Source: Termitidicoccus mucosus (GTDB lineage Bacteria > Verrucomicrobiota > Verrucomicrobiia > Opitutales > Opitutaceae). From it: a stretch of DNA of 64,000 nucleotides. This document shows, in pieces, positions 8,123 through 24,812 of this stretch. The stretch is from the NCBI RefSeq assembly GCF_038725785.1, contig NZ_CP109796.1, forward strand, positions 2,418,001-2,482,000. The letters are read 5' to 3'. Each line of letters starts with the position of its first letter. Positions within the stretch are counted from its first letter, which is position 1. A program made the position numbers and the translations under genes. The notes under the pieces are model-generated. The model made no database searches and was not told the DNA's origin. It was given only the letters and a program-made list of their open reading frames with translations.

Positions 8123-8142
8123 GACTTATCATGCGCTTTTTG

Positions 8143-8673: not shown

Positions 8674-8678
8674 AAAAA

Positions 8679-9611: not shown

Positions 9612-11074
9612 TATGAATCAATGCAATAATCAATAACTTTCTGAAAACCGGCTTCGTCCAGAATTCCATCCCCTTCAAGAAATACAACCGGACACTTGTT
9701 TTGTCGCGCCCAGCTTCTCCAAGCCTCCGCCACATGCCATCTGTCTGCCTGAGGCAGAAATAGCAGTTGGATTTTCATTGGCGCCGAAGGTGGAGCCACC
9801 GGGCAAACCAGAATGACACCTTGGTTATCCTTTGGCGGGCGCGTGCCCCAGCTTCCGACTCGCGCCCCAAGCACAACAACCCTCCCGCCATCGCAATTAT
9901 TCAGTTCCGCACCCGGTTCAACAACCTGTATCGCGTGGAGATAATCCATGTTCTCGCAAAACAGTTTCCGAATACGCCGGCCATGGCACGGGCCAAGGAT
10001 CTTGTAGTCAGGAACGATGGTCAAATCGGGTGCTTTTTGGGGCGCTCCCGGCTTGCATAACCAAATAGTGCCCGCAGCCGCATGGCTGATACGAACAGGG
10101 TCCTTCCCAATGGAAGCCAGGCCGAAAAGATACAGGGACAGGACGCAAAAAAGACTGATGGAAAAAGACAAAAGCATGGGACCTGGCAATGCGATATGCC
10201 TTTTCCTGCCGCCGTAAAATCCCGCGATAATCAAAACGCCTGCGGCAAGCAAGGCGAGGGGCAGGCTGTTATATATGGTCGAGTAGCATGCGTTGACCAT
10301 TGTAAAAAATACCATCATGGCTCCCGCCCCGGCCAGCAATCCCCTGCCCGACGGTGACACCAGGCCGGCCAGCCGATGACATAACAATATGCCCGCCAGC
10401 AGGAAAAATAGAATGAGGCCAAGCGCGGGCAGCCCCCATTCGACCGCAATGTTAAGATAGGAGTTCACCATGCTGCCGTGCATGGTTTGGGATGACAAAT
10501 CCTGATACCAGTTGTCATAATTCAGTCCGGCGCTTCCATTGCCCCATCCCAAAACCGGCTTGTCCGCGACCATCTTCGCTCCTCCCGCCCATAGCGTTAA
10601 TCGATTTGTGACAGATTTATCCCCCTGAACCGCGAGGGAAAAGCGTCCCCAGGCATTGGTGGCAATGAGTGCGACAAGTATGACGAAGATTCGCAGGCCA
10701 GTGTTCTTCATGCTCTTCATTTGAAGCCATATTGCGATGCAACGCTGACGCATGGCAGGCAGAAATGCTTGATGGTTGACGGGCCGGAATACCCGTTCTG
10801 CCAACGGTTTTTCTGCGATAAGTCCAAAAATAATAATCGAACACAGACTTGAAAATATCGCCCAACGGGAACAGGTGCCGACCAATAATGCCAGCGCGGC
10901 GCACTCGACAACCCAAATCATATTCTGGACATAGCCTGCCAATTTTTCTTTTTCGAAATACCATGAAAATATCCAAATAAATGGCAGGCACATGCCGATT
11001 GCCACGGCGGCATCATTTGGATTCGACCACCAATAGCACAACCGCGGAAGATCATTGTAATAGTATAAACTCAC
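9611..11074 (-). CDS. O-antigen-ligase/polymerase-like membrane protein, N-terminally short, with soluble C-terminal extension
   Basis: The 487-residue protein is a polytopic membrane protein. It has the periplasmic-loop signature of the Wzy_C/O-antigen ligase family: NRLTLWAGGAKMVADKPVLG, then W-G-N-G and HGSMVNSYLNIAVEWGLPAL (roughly residues 168-232). It opens at GTG 11074 directly in the SNPNDAAVAIGMCLPF segment. In relatives that N-P-N motif normally lies well inside the protein, and here a TAA lies 9 bases upstream. I therefore suspect loss of about 100-150 N-terminal residues. After the last helix (about residue 330) there is a soluble tail of about 150 residues (VVVLGARVGSWGTRPP, PVVFLEGDGILDEAGFQ) that I do not recognise. 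The gene may be a fragment or a divergent family member. Confidence 0.65.
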   Translation of the reverse strand: MSLYYYNDLPRLCYWWSNPNDAAVAIGMCLPFIWIFSWYFEKEKLAGYVQNMIWVVECAALALLVGTCSRWAIFSSLCSIIIFGLIAEKPLAERVFRPVNHQAFLPAMRQRCIAIWLQMKSMKNTGLRIFVILVALIATNAWGRFSLAVQGDKSVTNRLTLWAGGAKMVADKPVLGWGNGSAGLNYDNWYQDLSSQTMHGSMVNSYLNIAVEWGLPALGLILFFLLAGILLCHRLAGLVSPSGRGLLAGAGAMMVFFTMVNACYSTIYNSLPLALLAAGVLIIAGFYGGRKRHIALPGPMLLSFSISLFCVLSLYLFGLASIGKDPVRISHAAAGTIWLCKPGAPQKAPDLTIVPDYKILGPCHGRRIRKLFCENMDYLHAIQVVEPGAELNNCDGGRVVVLGARVGSWGTRPPKDNQGVILVCPVAPPSAPMKIQLLFLPQADRWHVAEAWRSWARQNKCPVVFLEGDGILDEAGFQKVIDYCIDS

Positions 11075-11200
11075 GATGCTTTAGAAAAATGAATATTATT
11101 GCCGAAACGGTTCCGCCTCATGATGGTTTTATTTTTCCCATTCGGTTGGTTTTTTATAAAGCTCTAAGAGCGTCTATCAAAAAGAAAAGTTGAAGGTGAT

Positions 11201-11320
11201 CTGTTTTGATCACAGAGGACACAGAGCGCGACCCACAGAGGGCACGGAGACCAAGCCTGAAAAGCGCTTTTCTCTCTGTGCTCTCCGTGTCGGAGCTCTG
11301 TGTTCTCTGTGTCAAAACAG
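11201..11320. repeat. Imperfect long inverted repeat in the gap upstream of the O-antigen-ligase-like gene
   Basis: The left arm at 11201-11227 (beginning ctgttttgatcacagag) pairs with the right arm at 11295-11320, with one base unpaired and one substitution. The interior holds further self-complementary CACAGAG/CTCTGTG blocks. Outside it, aaagctctaagagcg near 11158 and cgctctaaagctttt near 11366 form a second, outer imperfect pair, so the full unit may span about 11155-11385. The DUF1573 stop codon (11370-11372) lies inside the right outer arm. Confidence 0.65.
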
Positions 11321-11369
11321 ACTTCATTTGCCTTTTCGCGTCTTTGCGTTGGTTATTTTGTTAGGCGCT

Positions 11370-12068
11370 CTAAAGCTTTTTACGATTTTCGCCAATATAT
11401 GCAATGATTTCGATATTTTCGTAATAATTTTCTGGATTTGGCGACACTGTGATAATATCCGCGCATTTCATGCCGCTTTTGGGACGGACATGGACGTAAA
11501 AACGGTTGCTGTCCTGAGTGGGTTCAATACGGACAGCGAAATGCCCGTCTCTCACAAAAAGATTTTCGGCATTAAACTTAATATCCCCCGTATTGCCTTT
11601 GTCGGGAGCATCAAAAGTCACTTGAAGGCGTTGTTCGCTCATTTCTCCGTCCGCCTGCCACCTGAGCATGAGCGGAGTCACGGTTACATGGGTCGGTATT
11701 GTGACATGACCGCGAAGCATGTATTCACCTTCTTTTTCATCGGTTTCAATGGCAACCACAACATATCCTTGATCCCCCTTGTCGATTGTGTCCATTTTAA
11801 TATTTATTACCCCAGTCTCACCAGGCTCAAAGATTGTCTTGGCCAGCTCATAACTGGAGCACCCGCAGCTCAGCTCGACTTTGTTGATTTTAATGACATC
11901 AGGCCCTTTGTTTGTAAACTTGTAGGAAAAGCTTGCATACCGCTCCCCCCGCGGCAAAGTGAGTTTTTTCCCTGTTTCTTGAAAAACCAGCGACTGCGAA
12001 AAAAGCGGACCGGTTAATAAATGCGAAGCAATCATGCAAATTGCTAATTTTGTAATTTTAAACAACAT
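11370..12068 (-). CDS. Secreted DUF1573-domain protein
   Basis: The 232-residue protein has a signal peptide (LAICMIASHLLTGPLFSQS) followed by the immunoglobulin-like DUF1573 fold. The diagnostic segment is YKFTNKGPDVIKINKVELSC, then GCS and F-E-P-G-E-T-G, about residues 50-90, with the conserved Cys-Gly-Cys. The domain's role is unknown, though it is common in secreted proteins of Bacteroidota, Planctomycetota and Verrucomicrobiota. ATG 12068 (MLFKITKL) is preferred because the signal peptide then starts properly; an upstream in-frame start would run into the preceding gene. The start lies about 25 bases after the stop of the preceding secreted protein, so the two are probably one operon. 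Confidence 0.82.
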   Translation of the reverse strand: MLFKITKLAICMIASHLLTGPLFSQSLVFQETGKKLTLPRGERYASFSYKFTNKGPDVIKINKVELSCGCSSYELAKTIFEPGETGVINIKMDTIDKGDQGYVVVAIETDEKEGEYMLRGHVTIPTHVTVTPLMLRWQADGEMSEQRLQVTFDAPDKGNTGDIKFNAENLFVRDGHFAVRIEPTQDSNRFYVHVRPKSGMKCADIITVSPNPENYYENIEIIAYIGENRKKL

Positions 12069-12093
12069 AATATTTGATTTCGAGGTTGCGGTG

Positions 12094-12942
12094 CTAGAAG
12101 ACCATGTTGCAATAGCGCGCCACAGTATTATATTCAAAGCAGAACCACGGAATCCATCTTCCGAGGTTCTCGCTCCAATATACACGAATGCATATGGGAT
12201 AGGCGATATGCTCCATATTGGTTTTAATCATATATCTAATATCTGCAATCAATAATTTCCCCTGGTTTTTGAACTCGGTATGCGGTGTGGAGCCGCCCCA
12301 TGAGAATGCCGTGGATTGTGTCATGCAGCCGCAGCAGTTTCTATCAGCAGGGAATGGATCCGGGGTGGCGTCAAGTTCACCGGAATCTAGAATTTCCTTC
12401 AATCGATAGAAAGACTCCCCCGGAACAAAACCCGTGAAATGGGTGTTCATATGGCCAATCTTCGAGGTAAACATCCAATAAGCCTCGGCAAGACCGTAGT
12501 CGGTCAGCAACTCCGGACGGCGAATGGCCTTGCCCTGCCTCAAAGAGTGTCGCATTTTCATATAACCGGTCTGCTTGATTGACAGTTCTCCGTTCGAAAC
12601 TTTTTTGATTGACTCATAATACTCATCAAAATTTCTGGCACAGAATGCACGGACATTCCTGTTGATTTCATCATGCAATGCCAGATCCTGCTTCATCGAT
12701 AATGTCACCTCTGCCTGTCCGTCATTATGTTCTTCAATATTTAAATCAATCAATCCGCCATTACCGTCTTTTAGGGACGCTGATGGTTTTTCATGCCAAT
12801 TTTTGAAGCGTTCCCGGCCTGGTGCTAATTTTTCCGCTGGACTTAAGTCATCTGCAACTGCAAGCGAATTTGCGGGGAATATGGCTATAGAGGTTATCAA
12901 AATTATTAATAAAGCTTGAATTGTTATTTTAAAGTAAAGCAT
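12094..12942 (-). CDS. Secreted Cys-rich hypothetical protein
   Basis: I do not recognise this 282-residue protein. It has a clear signal peptide (ALLIILITSIAIFPANSLAV). The mature part is mixed alpha/beta with many Tyr and Trp residues and a Cys-dense region late in the chain (RNCCGCMTQS, then YPICIRVYW, WFCFEY and RYCNMVF at the end). That suggests disulfides after export. A good ribosome-binding sequence (ggaga) lies just before the ATG at 12940-12942, which is uncommon in this window. It sits between a 49-residue secreted peptide upstream and the DUF1573 gene downstream, all on the minus strand. Function is unknown. Confidence 0.65.
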   Translation of the reverse strand: MLYFKITIQALLIILITSIAIFPANSLAVADDLSPAEKLAPGRERFKNWHEKPSASLKDGNGGLIDLNIEEHNDGQAEVTLSMKQDLALHDEINRNVRAFCARNFDEYYESIKKVSNGELSIKQTGYMKMRHSLRQGKAIRRPELLTDYGLAEAYWMFTSKIGHMNTHFTGFVPGESFYRLKEILDSGELDATPDPFPADRNCCGCMTQSTAFSWGGSTPHTEFKNQGKLLIADIRYMIKTNMEHIAYPICIRVYWSENLGRWIPWFCFEYNTVARYCNMVF

Positions 12943-13011
12943 AATATTTCTCCGCTGAACGCGTTCCGATTCCTTATGGTTTGCACATATTTATCCTATC
13001 TTTTCTGTTTA

Positions 13012-13043
13012 GATATCCCCGCCCCAAAGAGCGGGGACATCTA
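13012..13043. terminator. GC-rich hairpin, possible terminator or attenuator
   Basis: The sequence gatatccccgcccc, a short aaag loop and agcggggacatct forms a stable hairpin in the 127-base gap between the 49-residue peptide gene and the secreted Cys-rich gene. Neither side has a strong T run on the minus strand, so a partial terminator, attenuator or mRNA-stabilising stem is possible. Confidence 0.4.
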
Positions 13044-13069
13044 TTTAGTTGTTTAAGCCTTCTACTACT

Positions 13070-13219
13070 TTACTCACAGACCATTGTGTTGCTTTGGCTA
13101 GACAACTTGACGCAAGCCCCGGGGCCCGCTGGACAGGAACCCGTCGAACCACATGCATACAATCTAATGCAGGTGGCCATAGTCATTGACATTAATATTG
13201 CTAATATTAGCTTTTTCAT
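13070..13219 (-). CDS. 49-residue secreted Cys-rich peptide
   Basis: A short open frame from ATG 13217-13219 to TAA 13070-13072. It starts MKKLILAILMSMTMATC, a compact signal peptide ending at Cys17, so processing as a small lipoprotein or secreted peptide is possible. Four more Cys follow (YACGSTGSCPAGPGACVKL and a final VCE). It lies in the same direction and spacing as its neighbours in the island. A similar small peptide start (MIKKIILSVLVLGGLTFG) occurs at 17651. I cannot assign a function. Support comes from the signal-like start, the Cys content and the lack of any overlapping gene. Confidence 0.5.
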   Translation of the reverse strand: MKKLILAILMSMTMATCIRLYACGSTGSCPAGPGACVKLSSQSNTMVCE

Positions 13220-13362
13220 GATGTTATTTTGTTTATTGTTATTTTGTCATTCATAATACGCTCTCCAAAATGAAGGTTGGTAATATTATGACAAAAGGTA
13301 AAATTCATTGATGCGCATTGCGAAATTTATCGATAACATAATCTGAATTGTATTTTTTTGTT

Positions 13363-14274
13363 TTATTGGGCGGACGTCGTTAAGCTTATATATATATCGT
13401 CGATATCAACCTCGCTCAATTCTTTAGCATTACCACCGTATTTAATATAATTTCTAATCTGGCTGGAACTAGTCGGAGCTTCCCTGGTTTCTTTTTCATA
13501 ATCACTAATTGCATCACTTACTGCTTTCCCCGCCCACCAATTAATCGGGGAAGTCGTCATAGCACCTTTATCGCTCACCCACAGTTCGGTATCCCAAATA
13601 GGATCCACTGGTTGAATATCTTTTATTATCCATCGGTATTTCGAATCGGAGGCGGTGGCTCCAGACGACATGTCTGCATATCCTGTGAAATTAAAGTCCG
13701 AAGGAAGATACTGTTTAATATCTTCATAGTTTTTCGGTGCATCACCATTATGCGCCTTGGAGAAATCAGAAACTGCTTGGCATAATACTTTAGATGCAAG
13801 CCCCTTGGCAAACCAACGAAGCCAAGCCATGGCTTGTCTATAATCAGCCACGGTTTCCATTGGTCCCGCGGTTGCATAAAGCCATTCTTTATCAGTCAGG
13901 TATTTGAATTCTGATATGGCATACTTAGGATTATTATTAACGAATTTGCTTAATTTTTCAATTTTGCCCAGTCAACTATCGAGTGCGTCTTCAATCTGTT
14001 CCATGTTATCCTCAACCACGGCGGTGCCCTGGTTTAATTTGTTCAAGTTATCCTCAATGCTTTGTAACAGTAGCTTGGATTGCCTCAAGTTCTTTTGTAG
14101 CTTAAATCCCTCATTTCTACTTAATTTCAAATCTCTCAATGCCTGATCCCTGGCGCCTATCAAACCGGGCATTGCTGTTTTGATACTATTAATGTCGAAA
14201 ATGAGTTTGGCTAAAACCCCAATCAAAATTATCAAGCCAAGCGAAATAAGCATTATATTCCTATGATTTTTCAT
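13363..14274 (-). pseudogene. Membrane coiled-coil paralogue A, interrupted by TGA at the conserved hinge Trp
   Basis: This is the first of five related genes. The frame runs from ATG 14272-14274 (signal anchor NIMLISLGLIILIGVLAKLI), through a coiled-coil region, to TGA at 13972-13974. It then continues open in the same frame to 13363. The continuation L-G-K-I-E-K-L-S-K-F-V, PKYAISEFKYLTDKEWL aligns with the paralogues' ELDRWLGNIIQLRNFI and EYAIPEFKYLTTKDWL, so the stop falls exactly at the hinge Trp codon (TGG in the others). The C-terminal part keeps both N-G-x-x-P-type repeats (FSKAHNGDAPKNYEDIKQYL and the weaker EKETREAPTSSSQIRNYI). It is otherwise undamaged, so the mutation looks recent. 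Function is unknown. Confidence 0.75.
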
Positions 14275-14414
14275 TGTTGCAATATAGATTCACCCACAGA
14301 GGGCACGGAGAAGTACTGAGTATAAAATTATTTTCTGTCTTTATCAGAGTCTCTTCGTGGTTGATTTGATTATCTTTGACCATGTTCATTGTTGGCCTGG
14401 GCAGGCAGTTTACA

Positions 14415-15380
14415 TTAATATTCTTTTTTCATCAAGCTTAGAAATATTTCGTCGATTTTATTCCTATTTTTATCAGCCCATTTGTTAGTTTTGGTATCGA
14501 TATATTTGTTGATTTGATCAAAACTGGTTGGCTCAGAGCCATTAGTTTTTACATAGTCTGAAATTGCACTTTGCACAGAATCAACCGTCCACGCCCCATT
14601 TTTGACACCCATGCCGACCCCCTTGTAGTGCACTTCTCCGGTATTGCTCACCCAGACTTGACTGTTCCATATATTATCAATCGGCGGCCCTGCTTCTGTG
14701 ATTATCCATTGTCCATCCTTCCATACTTCTCTATCAGTATTCCCTGATTCATTGGTTTCATATCTTTCGAGAATATCGGGATCAAAATCCGGAGGAAGAT
14801 ACTTGGTAATATCTCCCAGTTTTGTTGGAAGGTTACCATTATTGGCATTGGTAAAATCCTTGACGGCCTGGCCAAATATACTGCTTGCCGCTAATGTGGC
14901 AGTTTGCCTAAGCTCGGCCAGTGCAGCCCTGCAATTTGCCTCGCTCTGCATTGAGCCACTTTCAGTTACCGCAAGCCAGTCCTTCGCGGTTAAATATTTA
15001 AATTCCGGTATAGCGTATTGAGGGTGATATGTGATAAAATTTTTTAATTTGCGAATGGCAACAAACCAGCGATCCAGCTCGCGTCCCTCACCCTGCATGT
15101 TCTCTTCATCCGCAGCAATGCGCAACTTCGACTCTTGCTCCAGTTTGCTTAAGACTTCCCTAAGATCTTTTATCTTTTCATTGTATTCGCTTATTGCCTT
15201 TTGAAGCCTAATGTTTTCATTTTCACGAGATACCAGATCTTCCAATGCCTTGACTGTCGTGCTCCTATAGCCAGCCATTGCTTTTTCCCCGTCAATGATA
15301 TTAAGAAACAACGCAATGTTTACTCCAATCAAAAGAAGGAGCGTGGAGACAACCGCTATCTTAATTAAATGTTTTTTCAT
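14415..15380 (-). CDS. Membrane coiled-coil paralogue B
   Basis: I do not recognise this family by name. The 321-residue protein has a signal anchor at about 7-28 (KIAVVSTLLLLIGVNIALFL), a charged coiled-coil region at about 40-92, and the hinge ELDRW at 101-105. A conserved segment PQYAIPEFKYLTAKDWL follows at 120-136. A motif then occurs twice: FTNANNGNLPTKLGDITKYL (176-195) and YVKTNGSEPTSFDQINKYI (276-294), each a helix, an N-G turn, a Pro and another helix. Between them, QWIITEAGPPIDNIWNSQVW is conserved among paralogues. Topology suggests a single inner-membrane anchor with a periplasmic rod and globular end. It is the most divergent intact member of the array. Confidence 0.8.
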   Translation of the reverse strand: MKKHLIKIAVVSTLLLLIGVNIALFLNIIDGEKAMAGYRSTTVKALEDLVSRENENIRLQKAISEYNEKIKDLREVLSKLEQESKLRIAADEENMQGEGRELDRWFVAIRKLKNFITYHPQYAIPEFKYLTAKDWLAVTESGSMQSEANCRAALAELRQTATLAASSIFGQAVKDFTNANNGNLPTKLGDITKYLPPDFDPDILERYETNESGNTDREVWKDGQWIITEAGPPIDNIWNSQVWVSNTGEVHYKGVGMGVKNGAWTVDSVQSAISDYVKTNGSEPTSFDQINKYIDTKTNKWADKNRNKIDEIFLSLMKKEY

Positions 15381-15452
15381 GATCGCGATGGTTTAAAATG
15401 ACCTGCAAGCCGGTCCTACAGTGTTTTCATTGAACAGTGGCGCGGCAGCGCC

Positions 15453-15507
15453 GGTAGGGCGAAGCCTCCGGCTGAGCCGCGGCTCGGCAGGGACGCCTCG
15501 CCCTACC
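15453..15507. repeat. GC-rich hairpin of the dispersed five-copy family (copy a)
   Basis: A near-palindromic hairpin opens with ggtagggcgaagcctccggc and closes with gacgcctcgccctacc. It shares its core with copies near 23.7, 26.3, 37.3 and 62.2 kb. It lies in the gap between the Fn3-like lipoprotein and paralogue B and has none of the longer flanks seen in two other copies, so it may be truncated. Confidence 0.8.
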
Positions 15508-15617
15508 TTTGGGACAAGGGTAATAAAAAATATCATAAAAGGAGATATGAGACATAGCGCATTGTTTTTTCATTTTCCGCGCGTTTCGGCTGCCAATGAA
15601 TCTTTGCATGTTCGTGT

Positions 15618-16340
15618 TCATTCCGGTTTCTTGAAATCAGCCCCGAGCGGCCCCTGCCTGATGACAGGTTCGCCGGAAACCTTGATCTCGATTCGATACC
15701 AGTAGTCGGAATCCGGGTCAGGAAAGGTATCCACTATATTATCCTTCCATTCCATGGTTGAATAAACCTCCACCCCTCTGTTGTGAAAACCCAAGGGATC
15801 GGGGCTGCCGGCCCTTATTATTTTTATGTAGTCGTATTTGGCCTCGGGAAAATCCCACGAAATCGTCGCGGTCTTCTCGTCGCGAAACACGCTCCAGGAA
15901 TATCGCCGGGCAATCTCCGGGTAATTGCCAGCGCCCTTCTCATCGGGTTTCGCCCTTATCGGGCCAATGTAGTCCTCCGGCCCGTCAGGTGGCGTGACCT
16001 TCAGCCAATAGTAATAGGCCCGGGCTTCGATCAGCGTGTCCTTGTAGTGCTTGTCGCCCGGTTTCAAAGTTGCCAGCCGATCCCTGGCATCCGCCTGCCC
16101 CGTGGCATTTCTGTAAAGTTCGGTGGATTTGTAAACGGACAAATCATACGTCCACTCCAAATGGACAACCGCCCCGTTTCTGGTTGCGGAAAATGACTCC
16201 TGGGTCTGCCTTTTTGCAGCCGCCTGTGCCTGATTTTCCGGCTCCTTGTGTTTTGAACACGATGTGCATGCCAAAACAGCGAGCAATCCCGCCAGGCTTG
16301 CCATGTGGAATATGTTTTTTGTTTTCATTAGGTTGCGCAT
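15618..16340 (-). CDS. Fn3-like lipoprotein 1
   Basis: The product is a probable lipoprotein of about 236-240 residues. The N terminus has a lipobox (LLAVLACTSCSKHKE) after a hydrophobic signal; translation may start at ATG 16340 (MRNLM) or, more typically, at ATG 16328 (MKTKNIF). The mature part has two repeats that read as fibronectin-III-like beta domains. The first is around LEWTYDLSVYKSTELYRNAT, ending in YYYWLKVTPPDG. The second is around ISWDFPEAKYDYIKIIRAGS, ending in SDYWYRIEIKVSG. It is about 80 percent identical by eye to the gene at 18867-19583 and more distantly related to 24105-24812. It follows paralogue C in transcription order, with a hairpin between. Function is unknown. Confidence 0.8.
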   Translation of the reverse strand: MRNLMKTKNIFHMASLAGLLAVLACTSCSKHKEPENQAQAAAKRQTQESFSATRNGAVVHLEWTYDLSVYKSTELYRNATGQADARDRLATLKPGDKHYKDTLIEARAYYYWLKVTPPDGPEDYIGPIRAKPDEKGAGNYPEIARRYSWSVFRDEKTATISWDFPEAKYDYIKIIRAGSPDPLGFHNRGVEVYSTMEWKDNIVDTFPDPDSDYWYRIEIKVSGEPVIRQGPLGADFKKPE

Positions 16341-16398
16341 TGGCTTGTTCAGTGATGACTCTAGAATATCAAATTCTATTGGCCGGAATAAAAAGGCC

Positions 16399-16460
16399 AG
16401 GACAGAATGGCGCTAAGATAAGGACGATTGTCGTCATTTATCTTAGCGCCATTCCGTCCT
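16399..16460. repeat. 23-base inverted repeat hairpin, duplicated element (copy 1)
   Basis: The arms at 16399-16421 and 16438-16460 are complementary at 22 of 23 positions (aggacagaatggcgctaag on the left). The 16-base loop is itself partly palindromic (gacgattgtcgtc). It sits between paralogue C and lipoprotein 1. The same element occurs at 19642-19703 in the equivalent position. It could be a terminator with read-through or a mobile palindrome. Confidence 0.8.
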
Positions 16461-16499
16461 GACACCTTACGGATTCCACTGTATTTAAAATTGCTCACG

Positions 16500-17414
16500 T
16501 TAATTAGATTTGCTTGTTAGAGATTTATATATCTTGTTTATTTTATCTTTACCTATTTTATTATCAATGTATTGAATGATTTGCTCAGTATCTGTCGGCT
16601 CGATGCCAAATTGATTCTCGTAGGTTTTAATTGCAGTTTGCACAATCTTCTCCTCAGAATAGTCAATGCCCCTCACCATCATTCCACCAGTGGTGCTCAA
16701 ATAGAATCTACTGTCCCAAATATCATCTACTTGCGATATTTCCTTTATTATCCACTGATTTGAGGCTCCTATTACTATAACACCGTCCATCTGCCCATGG
16801 GGATTATTTTCATATCGAGCAAGAATATCAGGATCAAAATCCTTTGGCAGGTAGCTTACAATATCCTCCAAACCTCGTGGCAGGTTACCATCATTTGCTT
16901 TGGAAAAAGCCTGAATGCCTTGGCAAAGTTCTACACACACTGGCCTCTTTGCTCGTTCCCTCAACAATGCCAGGGCTTTTCTGTAATCCGCTTCACTTGC
17001 CATTTGGCCGCCTTCGGCTGCAGCAAGCCAGTCTTTGGTGGTCAGATACCTAAATTCTGGTATGGCGTATTCGGAGTGATGCTTAATAAAATTTCTTAAT
17101 TGAATAATGTTGCCAAGCCAGCGATCAAGTTCGTTCTCTTGGTCAACGATATCGTCTTGTCCAGCATTCTCAGCAAGAATTTCCTGGGTTTCTTTGAAAT
17201 TAATTAGCTCTTTCGTGGCCTTTTTCAGGGCGTCTTTGGTCTCCTTATTTTCACTCTCGCGAATTGCCAGAGACTTCCTTGCTTGATCTCGTTCGCGCTT
17301 GTACCCGGATATTATCTTTTCATATTCAATAATATCAGAATGCAGTTTGACGATTATTCCAATCAACCCTAAAAATACCAAGGCGGCCAATGTTATAGTT
17401 AAATGCTTTTTCAC
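16500..17414 (-). CDS. Membrane coiled-coil paralogue C
   Basis: The 304-residue protein has the family plan: signal anchor (LTITLAALVFLGLIGIIVKL), a coiled coil of charged residues to about residue 90, the hinge ENELDRWLGNIIQLRNFI, and EYAIPEFRYLTTKDWL. The first repeat is FSKANDGNLPRGLEDIVSYL and the second YENQFGIEPTDTEQIIQYI. Between them lies QWIIKEISQVDDIWDSRFYL. From the hinge to the stop it is nearly identical in DNA and protein to paralogue E (19743-20666), while its anchor and coiled coil are different. It starts 12 bases after the small ORF at 17427-17651 and is followed by the hairpin and lipoprotein 1. Function is unknown. Confidence 0.82.
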   Translation of the reverse strand: MKKHLTITLAALVFLGLIGIIVKLHSDIIEYEKIISGYKRERDQARKSLAIRESENKETKDALKKATKELINFKETQEILAENAGQDDIVDQENELDRWLGNIIQLRNFIKHHSEYAIPEFRYLTTKDWLAAAEGGQMASEADYRKALALLRERAKRPVCVELCQGIQAFSKANDGNLPRGLEDIVSYLPKDFDPDILARYENNPHGQMDGVIVIGASNQWIIKEISQVDDIWDSRFYLSTTGGMMVRGIDYSEEKIVQTAIKTYENQFGIEPTDTEQIIQYIDNKIGKDKINKIYKSLTSKSN

Positions 17415-17426
17415 TTTTCGATAAAT

Positions 17427-17651
17427 TTAAGATCCACAGGATATGCATGGTAAAATGGCGAGCACCCCGCCAGGCTTTCCACGTTGGATATAGTTTTTAT
17501 TTTCATGTGGTTGCGTATTGGTCTGTTCTGTGGTGATGAGGCTGCCTGCGACAACAGTGCCCGGGTCAACGCAGCCGCCATAATTGGTCATTGTGAGACC
17601 GAATGTTAATCCACCAAGGACTAGCACGGATAATATGATTTTTTTTATCAT
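17427..17651 (-). CDS. Small secreted peptide ORF whose 3' part is a decayed lipoprotein 5' end
   Basis: The 74-residue frame opens with a signal-like start (MIKKIILSVLVLGGLTFGLT) resembling the 49-residue peptide at 13219. Its 3' half (about 17427-17540) is recognisably homologous in DNA to the first ~110 bases of the lipoprotein genes at 16340 and 19583. This includes the ...gttgcg-attgg-ttgttc... leader and the lipobox codons. A one-base deletion shifts the frame, so the ORF ends GGVLAILPCISCGS where the lipoproteins read AGLLAVLACTSCSK. It is therefore a chimera. Whether it is translated is unknown. It starts upstream of paralogue C in the same direction. Confidence 0.45.
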   Translation of the reverse strand: MIKKIILSVLVLGGLTFGLTMTNYGGCVDPGTVVAGSLITTEQTNTQPHENKNYIQRGKPGGVLAILPCISCGS

Positions 17652-17778
17652 AGTTGGATTTTGTTTATTTTACCACTAAACGCGCTCCCCGACATGAAGA
17701 GTTGGCACCCAGTGGCAAAGGCACGAAGTGGTTGACGGTTTGTTGGCATGAACCAAATAAGGTCATCAAATTTTAAAT

Positions 17779-18705
17779 CTATTGGAGGGGTGTCGTAATG
17801 CTTGTGTATATTGCGTCAATTTCCGTCTTGCTCATTTTCCTGGCATTGTAAGTATATTTAATATATTCTGCGATTTGACTGGAGCTTGCGGGTAGGCCGC
17901 CATTTTTATTTTTATATTCCTCAATCGCGGCGCGAACCACACGCTCTTGGTTAAAATTAATTGGAACGTTTATTGAAGCCCCTTCGGCGCTGACCAACAA
18001 CCCGCTGTCCCAAATGCCATCCACTGCGCCGACATCCTTTATTATCCACTGTTGTGAACTTAGTACTGGATTACTGGAGGATATTTTCCCGGAAGGATTG
18101 TCTGTGTATCGCGTATAGTCAAATCCATCAGGAAGGTAATCAATGATATCTTCATATTTTTTTGGCGACTTACCATTATTTGCCTTTGTGAAATCAATCA
18201 CTGCTTGCCGGAGCATGTCACCTGTTTTTATATAAGACCTCATTCTAAGCAGGGCCAAGGCCCTTCTGCAATCAGCCTCGGTTTCCATTTGCTTCTCAGT
18301 TACAGCAAGCCAGTCTTGGTTTTCCAAATACTTAAATTCCGGAATGGCGTATTCTGGGTGCCGCGCAATGAAGCCTTTTAGTTGGAGAATGGTGCCGAGC
18401 CAACGATCAAGTTCGTTCTCCTGGTCAACGACATTATTCGTTAGCACATATGCGTCGAGAGTTTTAGCCGTGTTTTTGTAATTGGAGAATGCGTTTTCCG
18501 TTTTTCTTAGTGTTTGCCTAATTTCTTCGTTCTCATTGGCCGCTTTTAGCAAGGACTTTCTTGTTTGGTCTTTTTCTCGCTTGAGGCTGTCAATTTCCGA
18601 TTCTTTGCTAGCCAGGGCGAATTGCTGCAGGACGACCATGCCGACAAGGAATAACAATGCCAATCCGATCGATATTATACTTAAAATCCTTTTCACTTTT
18701 TTCAT
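17779..18705 (-). CDS. Membrane coiled-coil paralogue D
   Basis: The 308-residue protein follows the family plan. It has an anchor (ILSIISIGLALLFLVGMVVL), a Lys/Glu/Asn-rich coiled coil (SEIDSLKREKDQTRKSLLKA), the hinge ENELDRWLGTILQLKGFI, then PEYAIPEFKYLENQDWL. The first repeat is FTKANNGKSPKKYEDIIDYL and the second YKNKNGGLPASSSQIAEYI, with QWIIKDVGAVDGIWDSGLLV between. Its first ~100 residues and about 120 bases of upstream DNA are almost identical to paralogue E, while its C-terminal two thirds are distinct and closer to paralogue A. It lies directly downstream of lipoprotein 2 in transcription order. Function is unknown. Confidence 0.82.
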   Translation of the reverse strand: MKKVKRILSIISIGLALLFLVGMVVLQQFALASKESEIDSLKREKDQTRKSLLKAANENEEIRQTLRKTENAFSNYKNTAKTLDAYVLTNNVVDQENELDRWLGTILQLKGFIARHPEYAIPEFKYLENQDWLAVTEKQMETEADCRRALALLRMRSYIKTGDMLRQAVIDFTKANNGKSPKKYEDIIDYLPDGFDYTRYTDNPSGKISSSNPVLSSQQWIIKDVGAVDGIWDSGLLVSAEGASINVPINFNQERVVRAAIEEYKNKNGGLPASSSQIAEYIKYTYNARKMSKTEIDAIYTSITTPLQ

Positions 18706-18866
18706 ATGTTTGGGATGCTTTTTGGTTTAACTATTGAGAACACGAATGGTTCATGGGAAAAACGCAGGCAGATTTTTTTTCATTGGAATTGACTCGATTG
18801 GTTTTAGCAGTGTTCACGACCGTTACTTGACGTTTGAAATGATTGAATTGCATTATTATCATTTTA

Positions 18867-19583
18867 TTATGGATTAACATCTGGCGCGATGGGCCCCTGC
18901 CTAATGACAGGCCCGTCGGAAATCTTGATCTCGATACGATACCAGTAGTCTGAATCCGGGTCCGGAAAGGTATCCACTATGCTTTCCTTCCATTCCATGG
19001 TTGAATATACTTCCACCCCTCTGTTTCGATAGCCCAAGGGATCGGGGCTGGGGGACCTTATAACTTTTATGTAATCGTACCTGGCCTCAGGAAAGGCCCA
19101 TGAAATCGTCGCAGTCTTGTAGTTTCGAAATACACTCCAAGGGTACTGCCGGGTAATATGCGGGTAATTGCCGATACCCTTCTCATCAGGTTTCACCCTT
19201 ATTGGACCGATGTTTTCATCCGAGCCGTCAGGTAGCGTAACCTTCAGCCAATAGTAATATGCTCGGGGTTCTATCAGCGTATCCTTGTAGTGTTTTTCGC
19301 CGGACTTTAATACCGACACCCGATCTCTATCGTTTGACTGACCTGTGGCATTCTTGTAAAGTTCGGCGGATTTGTAAACGGACAAATCATACGTCCATTC
19401 CAAATCGACAATCGCCCCGGTTCTGGTTGCGGAAAAAGACTCCTGGGTCTGCCTTTTTGCCGCCGCCTGTGCCTGATTTTCCGGCTCCTTGTGTTTTGAG
19501 CACGATGTGCATGCCAAAACAGCGAGCAATCCTGCCAGGCTTGCCATGTGGAATATGTTTTTTGTTTTCATTAGGTTGCGCAT
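18867..19583 (-). CDS. Fn3-like lipoprotein 2
   Basis: A 238-residue close paralogue of lipoprotein 1, with the same signal and lipobox (LLAVLACTSCSKHKE) and the same two Fn3-like domains. The first contains LEWTYDLSVYKSAELYKNAT and YYYWLKVTLPDG; the second contains ISWAFPEARYDYIKVIRSPS and SDYWYRIEIKISDG. Differences concentrate in loops (for example NDRDRVSVLKSGEKHYKD), as expected for a duplicated surface protein under diversification. Start choices are ATG 19583 (MRNLM) or ATG 19571 (MKTKNIF). It follows paralogue E after a copy of the duplicated hairpin, exactly as lipoprotein 1 follows paralogue C. Function is unknown; an outer-membrane or periplasmic binding role is plausible. Confidence 0.8.
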   Translation of the reverse strand: MRNLMKTKNIFHMASLAGLLAVLACTSCSKHKEPENQAQAAAKRQTQESFSATRTGAIVDLEWTYDLSVYKSAELYKNATGQSNDRDRVSVLKSGEKHYKDTLIEPRAYYYWLKVTLPDGSDENIGPIRVKPDEKGIGNYPHITRQYPWSVFRNYKTATISWAFPEARYDYIKVIRSPSPDPLGYRNRGVEVYSTMEWKESIVDTFPDPDSDYWYRIEIKISDGPVIRQGPIAPDVNP

Positions 19584-19641
19584 TGGCTTGTTCAGTGGTG
19601 ACTCTAAAATATCAAATTCTATTGGCCGGAATAAAAAGGTC

Positions 19642-19703
19642 AGGACAGAATGGCCCTAAGATAAGGACGATTGTCGTCATTTATCTTAGCGCCATTCCTT
19701 CCT
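19642..19703. repeat. 23-base inverted repeat hairpin, duplicated element (copy 2)
   Basis: Arms at 19642-19664 and 19681-19703 pair with a few mismatches, and the loop is identical to copy 1. The whole interval 19584-19742 is nearly identical to 16341-16499, so the hairpin was copied together with the surrounding genes. Confidence 0.8.
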
Positions 19704-19742
19704 GACCCCTTACGGATTCAACTGTATTTAAAATTGTTCACG

Positions 19743-20666
19743 TTAATTAGATTTGCTTGTTAGAGATTTATATATCTTATTTATTTTATCTTTACCTATT
19801 TTATTATCGATGTATTGAATGATTTGCTCAGTATCTGTCGGCTCGATGCCAAATTGATTCTCGTAGGTTTTAATTGCGGTTTGCACAATCTTCTCCTCAG
19901 AATAGTCAATGCCCCACACCATTATTCCACCAGTGGTACTCAAATAGAATCTACTGTCCCAAATATCATCTACTTGCGGCATTTCTTTTATTATCCACTG
20001 CGTTGAGGCTCCTATTACCCTAACACCGTCCATCTGCCCATGGGGATTATTTTCATATCGAGCAAGAATATCAGGATCAAAATCCTTTGGCAGGTAGCTT
20101 ACAATATCCTCCAAACCTCGTGGCAGGTTACCATCATTTGCTTTGGAAAAAGCCTGAATGCCTTGGCAAAGTTCTACACACACTGGCCTCTTTGCTCGTT
20201 CCCTCAACAATGCCAGGGCTTTTCTGTAATCCGCTTCACTTACCATTTGGCCGCCTTCGACTGCAGCAAGCCAGTCTTTGGTGGTCAGATACTTAAATTC
20301 TGGTATGGCGTATTCGGAGTGATGCTTAATAAAATTTCTTAATTGAATAATGTTGCCAAGCCAGCGATCAAGTTCGTTCTCCTGGTCAACGACATTATTC
20401 GCTAGCACATATGCGTCGAGAGTTTTGGCCGTGTTTTTGTAATTGGAGAATGCGTTTTCCGTTTTTCTTAGTGTTTGCCTAATTTCTTCGTTCTCATTGG
20501 CCGCTTTTAGCAAGGACTTTCTTGTTTGGTCTTTTCCTCGCTTGAGGCTGTCAATTTCCGATTCTTTGCCAGACAGGGCGAATTGCTGCAGGACGACCAT
20601 GCCGACAAGGAATAACAATGCCAATCCGATCGATATTATACTTAAAATCCTTTTCACTTTTTTCAT
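19743..20666 (-). CDS. Membrane coiled-coil paralogue E, a mosaic of D and C
   Basis: The 307-residue protein has the same plan as its paralogues. Residues 1 to about 104 (anchor ILSIISIGLALLFLVGMVVL, coiled coil, NNVVDQENELDRWLG) are almost identical to paralogue D. From the hinge to the C terminus (NIIQLRNFIKHHSEYAIPEF, both N-G-P repeats, YENQFGIEPTDTEQIIQYI) it is almost identical to paralogue C. The switch falls within about 20355-20395, in the stretch where C, D and E share DNA (gatcaagttcgttctc). Upstream DNA matches that of D; downstream DNA, including the hairpin, matches that of C. Function is unknown. Confidence 0.85.
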   Translation of the reverse strand: MKKVKRILSIISIGLALLFLVGMVVLQQFALSGKESEIDSLKRGKDQTRKSLLKAANENEEIRQTLRKTENAFSNYKNTAKTLDAYVLANNVVDQENELDRWLGNIIQLRNFIKHHSEYAIPEFKYLTTKDWLAAVEGGQMVSEADYRKALALLRERAKRPVCVELCQGIQAFSKANDGNLPRGLEDIVSYLPKDFDPDILARYENNPHGQMDGVRVIGASTQWIIKEMPQVDDIWDSRFYLSTTGGIMVWGIDYSEEKIVQTAIKTYENQFGIEPTDTEQIIQYIDNKIGKDKINKIYKSLTSKSN

Positions 20667-20766
20667 ATGTTCGGGATGCTTTTGGGTTTAACTATTGAGA
20701 ACACGAATGGTCCATTGAAAAAACGCAGGCGGATTTTTTCCATTGGAATTGACTCGATTGGTTTTA

Positions 20767-20940
20767 TCAGTGCTCACGATCGTTTGCGGAAAATGGCTCC
20801 TGGGTCTGCTTTTTTGCCGCCGCCTGTGCCTGATTTCCCGGCTCCTTGTGTTTTGAACACGATGTGCATGCCAAAACAGCGAGCAACCACGCCAGGCTTG
20901 CCTTGTGGGATATGTTTTTTGTTTTCATTAGGTTGCGCAT
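20767..20940 (-). pseudogene. Truncated third copy of the Fn3-like lipoprotein gene
   Basis: DNA from about 20784 to 20970 matches the 5' end and leader of lipoproteins 1 and 2. The frame from ATG 20938-20940 gives MRNLMKTKNIS, the lipobox LLAVLACTSCSKHKEP and a Gln/Ala-rich spacer. Homology then breaks at the codons for S-A, and the frame ends four residues later at 20767-20769. Both Fn3-like domains are missing. The break point abuts DNA that also flanks paralogue D's upstream region, so it looks like a recombination junction. Its 57 residues could still be made as a tiny lipoprotein. Confidence 0.7.
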
Positions 20941-20975
20941 TGGCTTGTTCAGTGATGACTCTAGAATATTAAATT

Positions 20976-23465
20976 TTATTCGAGCATCGGTTTCAGCTTA
21001 TCCAGTTTTATTTCACGAATTGCATCAGCCCTGCCAGCCTCGTAAACACAGCCGTCAACCCATGTCCTGCAAGGATCGCTGTTGCTTGCGAACGACAGAT
21101 TTTTCAAGTCCGCGGCTCCAATCAGCAGCAGATAATTTTGCCGGTTTTCCGGATTCTTGAATATGGTCATGAACGCGGACTTCCGGGAAAATGAATATCC
21201 GTCTATCGACAGGCCGCGCGCGGCAGCCTTTACCGGCAGTTGCGACGCCAGTGTTTTCCAGATACCGTTGCTTTCAGAATTTCCTATCAGGATCAACGAC
21301 TTGGTTTTCAGCTCGTCCTCGGTGATTTCAGTGTCCTTTTTGACAACAAAGCTGGCGCCATAAAATTGGCGGCCATACTTTTCGGAAAGCAAGTGTGTCG
21401 CGGCTTCAATGCAATTCTCCCCATCTTGGTCGGCCTGGGTCCCCTTTACCACGATAAAGGGGTGCGCGAATAGCTCCGATATCGGGCCGGAGTAGCCATG
21501 CTCCCGCGCGATGTCGGCCGCGGTTTTCCCGGGATTGTTGTTTTTGCAGTGCGCCAGCCAGCCAAAAATCAAATCCCAAAGCTCAACGCCGGCCGGCCGT
21601 CTCCCGATGTGACTTTTGATGTCATTTCTTTTCCCCTGGGCCTCCCGAAGAAAATCCTCAGTCAACTGCATTTCCCCATGCCCCGCGGGCCGTGAGCCAT
21701 CGTGCAGGACCAATATATTAACGGATGAATTGGCGATGATGCGCCCGGAGGGATTGATTGCGGAAAACCAGTCTTTTAAGAAATGGTCACTCCCCGCAAA
21801 ATTTTTGGAAACCGACTGGTCCCTGTCGAAAATGGCCCGGTCATATACGATGGCCGCAAACCGGTTGGGATAGTCCGTGAGAAGACGCCCGCCAAGGAAG
21901 CCGCCGCTGCAAACACCGTAAATGCTTATCCTGGATTTATCGATGTTGTAATCCCTTTCGACCGCCTCCAGCGCCTCCTCATCGTGGGCGGATTCGTAAG
22001 TCCAGCCTTCGGGGGCATTCCTGTATCCGGGCCACAAAAGGGCAAACCCATGTTTCTCCGCGAATCGCGAAATCTGCACCGCGTCGCGATGAGCCGCCAT
22101 AAACGGGCTGGCAATAAACGGCCGATTTCTGGCGGATATGGTCGTGGGCATGATGAGCAACAGCGGAACGCCCTTCTCACGACTGTAACTTGGCGGAATA
22201 TATAACCTGTAGAATTGCCTCGACCCGTCTATTTGGGAGACAAACCCCCGGATGTGCAATCCGGGGACGTCCTTGGAAAACTCCGTCGCGCCTTTTTTTC
22301 GCAATTCCAGAAAATCGGCCAGGGTGCCAAGCGTATAGACCACTTTGTCCTGCCACTCGCGGCTGGCTGTGTCGTAGTTTGTCTTCTCCAGCAGGATTTC
22401 TCCCCTCCTGAGCTGCGCCTCGAGGTTAAGGCGGGGGCCATCGTCCCAGGAATAGCCGGAAAGCGAGTTCTTTACCTCTTCAAATACGGTTCTGGGCGAG
22501 CCGATCAGAAAATATTCATGGACTTCCTCTGCGCCCGATCTGTAAGTGATCCTGTAAAAACCCTCTGCAAGATAGTCCACCCCGTCCCGAATGATGCTCC
22601 CGTGTCTCATGTTTTCTTTCACAAACACGGGGTTGCCGGTTTTCATGTCGTCAACCTCGACCGCAAGACTCAGCCGATCCAGCAGGCTGTCCCACCATAG
22701 TATCGGAGGGTCCTGCTTGCCACCCCTGTTGAATACCTGCTTGTTTAAAAAGCTTAACGACGCGCTCCATGCGGCCTGAAAATCCCTGGATTGGTCGCAT
22801 ATCATCGACAGGCGCATATGCGGAGGCTTGTCAGTGGACAGGATTTTTATGGCGATTATGTTTTCACCTTCGTTGACCGGCACCGGAACCAGCAGATTGG
22901 TTCCAAGCTCTATGTTTTTTGCCGGCGCAATCTTTTTTACATGATTGAAGTTGGAATAGATCACCAATTCATTGTCGGTATCAATTTCAAGGATGACGGT
23001 TTGCTGTGAAGAGGAAATCGCCCGAAACACAATGGCGGACACCTGATTATTTCCCCACGCATAATGCCGAAAGTAATCGTCCTCCCCATCCGGGGTAAAA
23101 AATGCCGGCACGACGCCGTTGGGCGCGGGTTTTTGCATGGATGAGCTTGTGACTACCCGACCATTATCGAGGCTCAGGTGGACCGTGTCCTCCCAAGGGA
23201 TTTTGCCGTTAATTTCGAAAATTGCCCTCCATGGGCCGAGGTATTTGCAGGCCGAAACTTCGAGCCTCGCCCCATTCAGCCTAATCGCGGGTATATCTCC
23301 GGCCTCAATCCACGCGAGTGTCTCTTTGGTTTCCTGCGCGCATATCATGGCAGCTCCAAGAACGAGCAGGCATGCGTTGGCAATGGAAACGCGCAAAAGA
23401 CATACTTCCAAGGGATGGACGAGGGAGCGCGCGAAGATGAGCACAATGTCTTTTGAGACTCCCAT
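20976..23465 (-). CDS. Large secreted esterase-like alpha/beta-hydrolase protein
   Basis: The 829-residue protein starts at ATG 23465 (MGVSKDIVLIF) with a late signal segment (IANACLLVLGAAMICAQE). A beta-rich N-terminal half of about 400 residues is followed by an esterase/prolyl-oligopeptidase-like alpha/beta hydrolase domain (FYRLYIPPSYSREKGVPLLL, about 425 onward). The nucleophile elbow reads ISIYGVCSGGFLGG. Cys519 occupies the position expected for the serine nucleophile, giving G-x-C-x-G-G, with a Ser immediately after. A candidate acid/His region follows (ILVLHDGSRPAGHGEM), then a C-terminal beta domain with LLIGAADLKNL. It could be an exported esterase or an inactive relative. It is the first gene of the island's minus-strand array. 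Confidence 0.68.
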   Translation of the reverse strand: MGVSKDIVLIFARSLVHPLEVCLLRVSIANACLLVLGAAMICAQETKETLAWIEAGDIPAIRLNGARLEVSACKYLGPWRAIFEINGKIPWEDTVHLSLDNGRVVTSSSMQKPAPNGVVPAFFTPDGEDDYFRHYAWGNNQVSAIVFRAISSSQQTVILEIDTDNELVIYSNFNHVKKIAPAKNIELGTNLLVPVPVNEGENIIAIKILSTDKPPHMRLSMICDQSRDFQAAWSASLSFLNKQVFNRGGKQDPPILWWDSLLDRLSLAVEVDDMKTGNPVFVKENMRHGSIIRDGVDYLAEGFYRITYRSGAEEVHEYFLIGSPRTVFEEVKNSLSGYSWDDGPRLNLEAQLRRGEILLEKTNYDTASREWQDKVVYTLGTLADFLELRKKGATEFSKDVPGLHIRGFVSQIDGSRQFYRLYIPPSYSREKGVPLLLIMPTTISARNRPFIASPFMAAHRDAVQISRFAEKHGFALLWPGYRNAPEGWTYESAHDEEALEAVERDYNIDKSRISIYGVCSGGFLGGRLLTDYPNRFAAIVYDRAIFDRDQSVSKNFAGSDHFLKDWFSAINPSGRIIANSSVNILVLHDGSRPAGHGEMQLTEDFLREAQGKRNDIKSHIGRRPAGVELWDLIFGWLAHCKNNNPGKTAADIAREHGYSGPISELFAHPFIVVKGTQADQDGENCIEAATHLLSEKYGRQFYGASFVVKKDTEITEDELKTKSLILIGNSESNGIWKTLASQLPVKAAARGLSIDGYSFSRKSAFMTIFKNPENRQNYLLLIGAADLKNLSFASNSDPCRTWVDGCVYEAGRADAIREIKLDKLKPMLE

Positions 23466-23637
23466 GGAAAACAACGAGGTTTTGAAAGAAAAACCACTAG
23501 GCCGGCTTACAGTATTTTTAAAAACATACCTTGTCGGACAGTCAGGGATTCCGAACGCCCCCAATAGTGACCACCCCGGAGGCGGCCCCCGGGCAAACCG
23601 GAAAAGTAACAAGGGGGCGGCGATGGCCGAAAGTCCG

Positions 23638-23770
23638 GTTTTTACAAATTATACCATTTCCCAGTCATCTATAGACTTATCAAGGTAGGACGAAGCCTCC
23701 GGCCGAGCCGCGGCTCGGCGGGGACGCCTCGCCCTGCCGAAAATATAAATTTCGTTCGGGAATGGCATTG
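23638..23770. repeat. Dispersed repeat, long form with flanks (copy b)
   Basis: A GC-rich hairpin core at 23684-23738 is flanked by a left segment (ttttacaaattataccattt ... tatagacttatcaagg) and a right segment (aaatataaatttcgttcggg aatggcat). Both flanks recur around the copy at 62.2 kb. The outer ends are imperfect inverted repeats (ataccatttccc against gggaatggcat), as in a nonautonomous mobile element. Confidence 0.8.
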
Positions 23771-24104
23771 CAAGCCTATGGTTACGATCAATTAGCGAGT
23801 TATTGCTTGAGAGGGGCATAGGCGGCGAGCCTGTCAAAAAAGCAATGCCGAAGAGTCAAACGCGGTTCGACGCGCCTGGTTCAGGCCATCCGGCGGTGCG
23901 AAGCACTACAGCGTATCGCGGGTGATTGGATGGCGGGGAGAGGGGCGAGTTGGAGGATACGTTATCTGACGATCCGATTACGATGCCAGATTTTGCGCTT
24001 GAATGCAGGCACGGCGCAGATACGACTCCAAAATTGTTATTCTTCCAAATTGATTCCCATTCAGATCATAATAGGATTCCGATTTCCAGCCAATCCATAA
24101 ACTC
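23771..24104. other. Gene-free gap before lipoprotein 3
   Basis: Both strands were read and no convincing coding frame, RNA gene or palindrome was found. The stretch is mixed in composition and likely contains the promoter of the plus-strand lipoprotein gene; no clear -35/-10 pair could be fixed. Confidence 0.4.
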
Positions 24105-24812
24105 ATGAATAAATCATTTGGCACTTATTTGGCTATCTTAATGCACGCGGCCTGCCTATTGGCAGTCTGCTCATGCAAAAAAAAGGATGCGGCCATACAT
24201 TCACCACAGCCAGATGTTGCCGGACAAAGTCCCCGGCTGCTCACCAGTTCAAATGACGGGATTACGGTTACGAGAAAAGGAAGTTTTGCAAGGTTCGAGT
24301 GGGAGCTGGATTTTGGCGGCTGTAAAACCATCGAAGTCTATCGGAACACGACAGGCATGGCAGAAAACAGGGAAAGAACCGGACGCCTTCACCCGGCAAA
24401 AAAGGAATTCAATGACAGGCTGCCCAACCCTGGCGTCTTTTATTATTGGTTAAAGGTAAAACCTGTATACGGGGAGGCGCAGAATTTCGGCCCGGTTGTC
24501 GTGCCCGCCGATCCGGACAAAGGCAATACCTATCAAGACATCACCGAAGCATTTCGTATTTCCATCTCGCGGACAACCACAGCGGCGACAATCGCATTGA
24601 ATTTCCCGGATGAGGAATACACGCATATAAAGATAATAAAAAACACAAATCCGGACATGACTTCCGGTCTCACCATTCATAAAACAACAAGCAAGAATGA
24701 AACCATACGGGATCCGTTGCCTGATGCGAATAGCGAATACTGGTACCGGGCCGAAGTTTTGCTTGAGAGCGGCAATGAATTCAGAGTAGGCCCAATCAAG
24801 GCGGAGTATTAA
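24105..24812 (+). CDS. Fn3-like lipoprotein 3
   Basis: A 235-residue divergent relative of the lipoproteins at 15618 and 18867, on the opposite strand. It has a signal peptide with a lipobox (ACLLAVCSCKKKD) and two Fn3-like domains. The first holds FEWELDFGGCKTIEVYRNTT and YYWLKVKPVYGEAQ; the second holds IALNFPDEEYTHIKIIKNTN and SEYWYRAEVLLESG. Spacing of these blocks is the same as in the paralogues, but identity is low outside them, so this is an older duplication. The ATG at 24105 has no obvious Shine-Dalgarno sequence. It closes the AT-richer island: the next gene, 18 bases on, is GC-rich. Function is unknown. Confidence 0.75.
   Translation: MNKSFGTYLAILMHAACLLAVCSCKKKDAAIHSPQPDVAGQSPRLLTSSNDGITVTRKGSFARFEWELDFGGCKTIEVYRNTTGMAENRERTGRLHPAKKEFNDRLPNPGVFYYWLKVKPVYGEAQNFGPVVVPADPDKGNTYQDITEAFRISISRTTTAATIALNFPDEEYTHIKIIKNTNPDMTSGLTIHKTTSKNETIRDPLPDANSEYWYRAEVLLESGNEFRVGPIKAEY

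Follow-up and report, generated by a model that had tools for sequence, protein, structure and literature searches.

A Termitidicoccus mucosus gene array related to the outer half of membrane-tethered sigma factors

A 64,000-nucleotide stretch of the Termitidicoccus mucosus genome (hereafter the window; bases 2,418,001-2,482,000 of contig 1, genome size 7.9 Mb) carries an array of four intact genes (304-321 codons) and a fifth, broken gene, all on the minus strand. Sequence comparisons firmly support homology of the array proteins, head included, to the extracytoplasmic half of membrane-tethered extracytoplasmic function (ECF) sigma factors of the Opitutaceae. Our preferred reading, to which we assign a probability of roughly 0.6, is that the array belongs to an Opitutaceae protein family with two forms, one being the outer half of a tethered ECF sigma factor and the other, seen here, lacking the sigma part, and that its genes are paralogues of the sensor or partner in a sigma-twin signalling module that were orphaned and then multiplied through duplication and recombination. 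A sequence-only reading of the same DNA had proposed an envelope machine in which a membrane rod pairs with a lipoprotein; the relatives point to sigma-factor signalling instead.

The array proteins share an anchor, a coiled coil and a head

The array genes, which we refer to by their first coordinate, are as follows.

19743-20666, minus strand: intact sigma-less outer-half protein, 307 amino acids; a chimera, with codons 1-100 like 17779 and codons 104-307 like 16500
17779-18705, minus strand: intact sigma-less outer-half protein, 308 amino acids
16500-17414, minus strand: intact sigma-less outer-half protein, 304 amino acids; GTG start
14415-15380, minus strand: intact sigma-less outer-half protein, 321 amino acids; 59% identity to the copy at G000:C1:6040446-6041306
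13363-14274, minus strand: fifth copy, broken by an in-frame TGA at 13972-13974

Two more array-family copies lie at 6.04 Mb, 3.6 Mb from the window, and one of them has a broken N-terminus. The genome thus holds seven copies in total, none of which is fused to a sigma factor. Protein identity is ~40-60% in most pairs of intact copies and 77% for 16500 versus 19743; the other three intact window proteins are 35-42% identical to 14415, and the anchor, coiled coil and head are common to all four. The order along each intact protein is a few residues, a single hydrophobic helix, the coiled coil and the head. Because only 3-7 residues precede the most hydrophobic 19-residue stretch in these four proteins, a cytoplasmic anti-sigma domain has no room in them; Pfam matches up to an expectation value (E) of 1 included no anti-sigma family, and the Pfam scan of the window proteins found neither sigma-70 region 2 nor region 4. 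The predicted model of 14415, built from seven sequences (mean predicted local distance difference test [pLDDT] 76.7, predicted template modelling score 0.59), has one helix up to residue 118 followed by a mixed head, in agreement with the earlier description of an anchored rod with a head.

The sequence-only reading had extended the shared anchor and coil, the ELDRW and YAIPEF blocks and two N-G-x-x-P motifs to all five genes. The common plan holds for the four intact genes, while the fifth departs from it: a TGA replaces the W of ELDRW (the sequence reads ALDS-stop), YAISEF stands in place of YAIPEF, only the first N-G-x-x-P motif is present, and the 165-residue open reading frame (ORF) at 13363-13860, a possible restart inside the broken copy, has no anchor. 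Both N-G-x-x-P motifs are found only in 14415 and 17779, with 16500 and 19743 having D-G-x-x-P and F-G-x-x-P.

The proposal that these proteins belong to no named family was borne out in the libraries searched. No Pfam, NCBIfam, PHROGs or PADLOC model fitted the array proteins above noise: PHROGs gave no match at E 0.01, the single PADLOC match (E 0.005) fell on the coiled coil, and matches to PDB sequences were coiled coils only (best E 0.0023). The 14415 model had no convincing match among solved structures (Foldseek best E 0.63, VIA-align best Z 4.3). The likeness of the head model to PilV (5v23, Z 3.8) and PilA (9laa, Z 3.6) in VIA-align, over 81 residues each, is within the chance range and too weak to support a pilin or pseudopilin head. 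A phage or plasmid origin was set aside, as 14415 was unmatched in 50,697 phage and 72,556 plasmid records.

Relatives in the Opitutaceae carry the same outer half behind a sigma factor

Searching with 14415 alone gave matches in 9 of 95 genomes, its own included, with a best E of 7.7e-21 in the other eight. Ten of the 18 matches in those eight genomes lay in frames longer than 500 codons, and eight lay in frames of 302-392 codons. All five long relatives scanned (L019, L024, L027, L028 and L031, in our numbering of loci) had sigma-70 regions 2 and 4 above the Pfam cut-offs. When read out, the long relatives begin with a sigma part, and the membrane helix, coiled coil and head behind it all align along the window proteins in the full-length alignment (A3). 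By this alignment and a head-only profile, the window proteins follow the helix, coiled coil and outer-head plan of the tethered sigma factors.

With a 22-row profile, 56 of 250 family genomes gave matches at E<=1e-3, many on the anchor and coil only, and 29 of the 250 at E<=1e-30 by hand count; nine candidates were scored per genome in this search, and the latter count leaves out places with E >1e-30, many of which cover only profile positions ~1-100, taken as the shared anchor and coil. In a sample of the phylum, with six candidates scored per genome, 5 of 387 genomes matched at E<=1e-10, all five from the same family. Two genomes of the same genus (68 and 72% complete) gave no array-family match in either the one-protein or the profile search.

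A profile made from 16 relatives of other genomes recovered the four intact genes and the post-stop piece of the fifth at E 2e-32 to 4e-59. To guard against circularity and artefacts of the coil, the head-only profile (16 rows, all from other genomes) was applied to the window copies, where it gave E 8e-31 to 2e-46. Across 650 frames from the window and the 6.04 Mb locus it returned the seven known copies at E 3e-28 to 2e-46 and nothing else at E<=1, and a reversed-frame control for the other-genome profiles returned 0 of 650 frames at E<=1. The guard is only partial because the rows of both profiles had themselves been retrieved, and then aligned, with the help of a window protein.

Many tethered sigma genes are followed by a sigma-less twin

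We assembled the neighbourhoods of 40 of the 41 places outside the T. mucosus genome that matched at E<=1e-30 (G219:C470 was left out). These 40 loci contain 34 sigma-fused genes. Directly behind 22 of them, in the same orientation, lies a sigma-less family frame; in L103 that frame is the remainder of the broken sigma gene itself, and the twin lies behind it. Seven loci are without a sigma-fused frame (L094, L101, L115, L116, L117, L121 and L106), among which L101 begins at a contig end, L121 consists of fragments and L106 holds broken pieces of both genes.

The twin starts with a short tip and continues through a single membrane helix and a coiled coil to the head that is also found in the outer half of the sigma factor; in alignment, the outer part of the twin is a repeat of that of the sigma factor. 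By a rough guess of the start codons, the two genes overlap by ~4 bases in eight pairs. Head distances on the sigma side and the twin side are correlated across 21 pairs (r=0.87, with 0 of 5000 permutations as high), and seven sigma genes and seven twin genes form subtrees that are largely mirror images of each other. Loci in which a tethered ECF sigma factor and its sigma-less twin diverge in parallel include L085, L087, L091, L098, L109, L110 and L111. The stability of the sigma-twin order over deep divergence suggests that the two proteins function jointly.

In several genomes (loci L091, L103, L106 and L113), sigma or twin genes are interrupted by stops or frameshifts, which could be real decay or assembly errors. 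A recurring neighbour family was seen in 10 of the 40 loci; its one scanned member (L086:2923-3513) is a peptide methionine sulfoxide reductase, which we regard as a hint only.

The copies in T. mucosus form one clade with a recombinant and a broken member

The seven copies form a single clade with support of 100/99 in a tree that left out frames with fewer than 170 model positions. Nearest to this clade, with weak support, are sigma-less orphans of two other genomes (L094 and L115). In 20-codon steps, the first 100 codons of 19743 are 97-100% identical in DNA to 17779, and the remaining codons are 93-100% identical to 16500; this switch in identity indicates recombination at the ELDRW joint. 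The seven-copy clade, the chimera and the pairwise divergence all agree with the earlier suggestion that the array was multiplied and diversified. The chimeric nature of 19743 and the copies at 6.04 Mb are additions to that account, as are two lipoprotein remnants described below (20779-20940 and 17466-17536).

Profile and sigma-type searches of the T. mucosus genome detected no sigma-fused member of the family. Neither the window nor the 17 kb covered at 6.04 Mb contains a sigma frame, so none of the copies has the sigma-fused gene directly upstream that marks a twin. Of 11 sigma-type hits in the genome, six were read out and lack the array-family domain, and the frames of the other five span 198-266 codons. 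These hits bear on the idea that the intact copies still work in trans with a highly divergent tethered sigma factor encoded elsewhere in the same genome. Other sigma factors are indeed present, and in relatives weak matches to the anchor and coil only, in frames of ~480-590 codons, suggest that there may be tethered proteins with other heads. However, the six candidates have neither a domain match nor, by eye, a long tail behind the sigma part, and the frames of the other five are too short for a tail, so we regard such a partner as quite improbable.

A second alternative is that the array is a decaying relic, in which sensor-only copies left after sigma loss were amplified neutrally by recombination and have no function. 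Broken frames in one of the five window copies and one of the two distant copies, the remnants of duplicated lipoproteins, the AT-rich island in which the array sits (41-49% G+C at 12-22 kb versus 57-68% at 1-6 kb and past 24 kb) and the failure to detect a sigma form in the genome would all fit this explanation. Against it, four window copies and one distant copy have kept full frames despite the low identity between most of them. The ratio of nonsynonymous to synonymous substitution rates (dN/dS) is 0.23-0.51 in six array pairs, and selection therefore acted for much of the divergence, perhaps before the sigma part was lost. We consider a functionless relic unlikely.

Several observations weigh against our preferred reading of the array as sensor or partner paralogues orphaned from a tethered sigma factor. 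Twelve of the 34 sigma-fused genes stand without an adjacent twin. Joint inheritance makes operon partners co-diverge even if they never touch, and linkage explains part of the parallel divergence. The tree gives the window copies no firm placement: in the approximately unbiased test, P was 0.086 when the copies were held with the seven twins, 0.177 with the twins plus three orphan rows, and 0.037 with the seven sigma-fused forms plus orphans, these groups having been named only after the tree was viewed. The dN/dS values were obtained by simple counting for each pair, with dS reaching 1.8, and a ratio below 1 may be the trace of selection that predates sigma loss. Finally, the profile search scored 9 of 60 first-look candidates in the T. 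mucosus genome, and a very divergent sigma form could have escaped it.

The interspersed lipoprotein genes probably belong to a separate module

Other features lie between and behind the array genes.

18867-19583, minus strand: lipoprotein with two fibronectin type III (Fn3)-like domains, one of 12 family matches in the genome; judged no partner of the array family
15618-16340, minus strand: second copy of the same lipoprotein, 81% identity to 18867-19583
20779-20940, minus strand: lipoprotein copy cut short after its first 54 residues, immediately behind the hydrolase gene
17466-17536, minus strand: decayed lipoprotein-derived piece, 80% identity to the start of 15618-16340; inside the short ORF 17427-17651
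19638-19718, minus strand: hairpin behind gene 19743
16395-16475, minus strand: hairpin behind gene 16500, 95% identity to the hairpin at 19638-19718
20976-23612, minus strand: hydrolase-like protein, 878 amino acids; Peptidase_S9 and PHA-depolymerase matches below cut-offs

The sequence-only reading had correctly recognized that genes 19743 and 16500 are each followed by the same hairpin and then an Fn3-like lipoprotein, and it had suggested that the array is a set of pairs between an inner-membrane coiled-coil rod and an outer-membrane Fn3 lipoprotein. The lipoprotein genes run in the same direction as the array genes, and the copies of the unit are spaced 3,243 bases apart. The neighbourhoods of homologues, set beforehand as the test of that pairing, do not show it: the lipoprotein is absent from all 40 relatives' loci, which span 4.9-9 kb each, and from the 17 kb covered around the 6.04 Mb copies. 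Moreover, 9 of the 12 lipoprotein matches in the T. mucosus genome lie outside the array. We therefore rejected the lipoprotein as the partner of the array proteins and regard the rod-lipoprotein explanation as highly improbable.

The steady neighbour of the lipoprotein is a hydrolase-like gene (~800-1000 codons), which adjoins two-domain lipoproteins at all five neighbourhoods of the genome that hold such copies. The hydrolase search ranked these five genes highest (all E<=1.3e-172), with weaker matches lying away from the lipoprotein places. One of the five places is in the window, where the truncated lipoprotein lies directly behind hydrolase 20976-23612 and a divergent lipoprotein copy (24147-24809) lies on its other side; the others are L123, L124, L125 and L126. 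The lipoprotein most likely belongs with the neighbouring hydrolase gene in a module separate from the array. The alternation of array genes and lipoproteins is best explained by the position of the array inside a hydrolase-lipoprotein locus, together with joint duplication of the lipoprotein gene. The three lipoprotein matches in G004, a further genome of the family (L036, L038 and L039), are all interrupted by stops.

Lipoproteins 15618 and 18867 have, by eye, cysteines after a hydrophobic stretch. Their only NCBIfam match is far under its cut-off (PelI, E 3e-6, 26.5 of 620 bits). A model was made of copy 15618 only, from three sequences, and it matched tandem Fn3 pairs in Foldseek (best E 2.3e-6, with 184 rows at E<=0.001), so that both lipoproteins are predicted to comprise two Fn3-like beta sandwiches. 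The likeness is to tandem fibronectin type III domains such as the integrin beta-4 pair 1qg3 (Foldseek E 3e-6), but the model is of low confidence (mean pLDDT 61, second domain 43-66), TM-scores are 0.2-0.4 and no sequence family is shared.

Of the hairpins behind 19743 and 16500, one has a 26-pair stem and the other a stem of 25 pairs with three mismatches; their z values are -9.7 and -10.6. Four further sites in the genome, including the end of the 6.04 Mb pair, match the hairpin in part, and it looks like a dispersed palindromic element. A different, G+C-rich palindromic repeat occurs upstream of gene 14415 (15453-15507) and again near the hydrolase (23684-23738), and by eye a piece resembling it lies upstream of the 6.04 Mb pair (L009, ~7240-7280). 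The AT-rich stretch at 8000-24000 also includes an O-antigen-ligase-like gene (9611-11074, Wzy_C) and a DUF1573 protein (11370-12185).

A possible mechanism and its implications

We infer the function of the array proteins by analogy with Pseudomonas putida IutY. In the relatives, the sigma factor would probably be held at the membrane and released upon an outside signal, as IutY is. The twin may pair with the outer half of the sigma factor through the coiled coil and thereby set the balance of held versus released sigma factor, probably by regulated proteolysis as in IutY; we put this proposal forward tentatively, at slightly less than an even chance. In the T. mucosus genome, the sigma part would have been lost or never acquired, and the remaining proteins would have been kept as anchored, self-pairing head proteins. 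Tandem duplication may have multiplied the array, with reshuffling at the ELDRW joint and decay of at least one copy. The array genes in the window are most likely maintained sigma-less anchored heads without their switch, some of which are decaying.

A broader proposal is that the Opitutaceae have a design in which a sigma factor with its own outside sensor is partnered by a second, sigma-less version of the sensor, its translation coupled to that of the sigma factor, and that in T. mucosus the sensor was freed as a recombining repertoire, coil and head being swapped at the ELDRW joint for new specificities. We judge this version to be doubtful.

What appeared to be an anonymous membrane array therefore becomes a lead on a signalling module: a membrane-tethered sigma factor with an outside sensor, in many cases with a sigma-less sensor twin. 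The outer part of these tethered sigma factors is covered by no model in the protein libraries searched, and the array may provide an example of a sensor that was orphaned, duplicated and recombined inside one genome. It also advises caution, since alternating genes can be two unrelated modules that were co-duplicated.

Comparison with known systems

Our literature search, which covered titles and abstract openings and did not extend to the main ECF classification, found no description of the sigma-twin module. Within the literature found, membrane-spanning extensions of sigma factors are known in kind, and a sigma-less sensor twin behind the sigma gene was not met.

A similar plan is that of IutY, a cytosolic ECF sigma factor fused to a periplasmic anti-sigma part (PMC5411451) that is released by Prc and RseP (PMC5411451; PMC8999054); its abstract describes it as unique and names an outer membrane receptor (PMC5411451). 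The sigma-fused relatives of the array share with IutY the order of a sigma part, one membrane helix and an outer regulatory part. In contrast, the array proteins have no sigma part, and the IutY abstract mentions no sigma-less twin; the two systems are compared here by plan and not by sequence. ECF48, ECF52 and ECF53 of Actinobacteria (PMC8999054) likewise consist of a sigma factor with a C-terminal extension that holds transmembrane helices, but they have a zinc-finger anti-sigma-like part and come from a different phylum, and a twin gene goes unmentioned in the portion of that report drawn on here. Like membrane-anchored anti-sigma factors (PMC8103513), the twin is a membrane protein encoded beside a sigma gene. 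It differs from them in that the window proteins leave no space for a cytoplasmic anti-sigma domain, and in that the twin repeats the outer part of the very sigma factor it accompanies.

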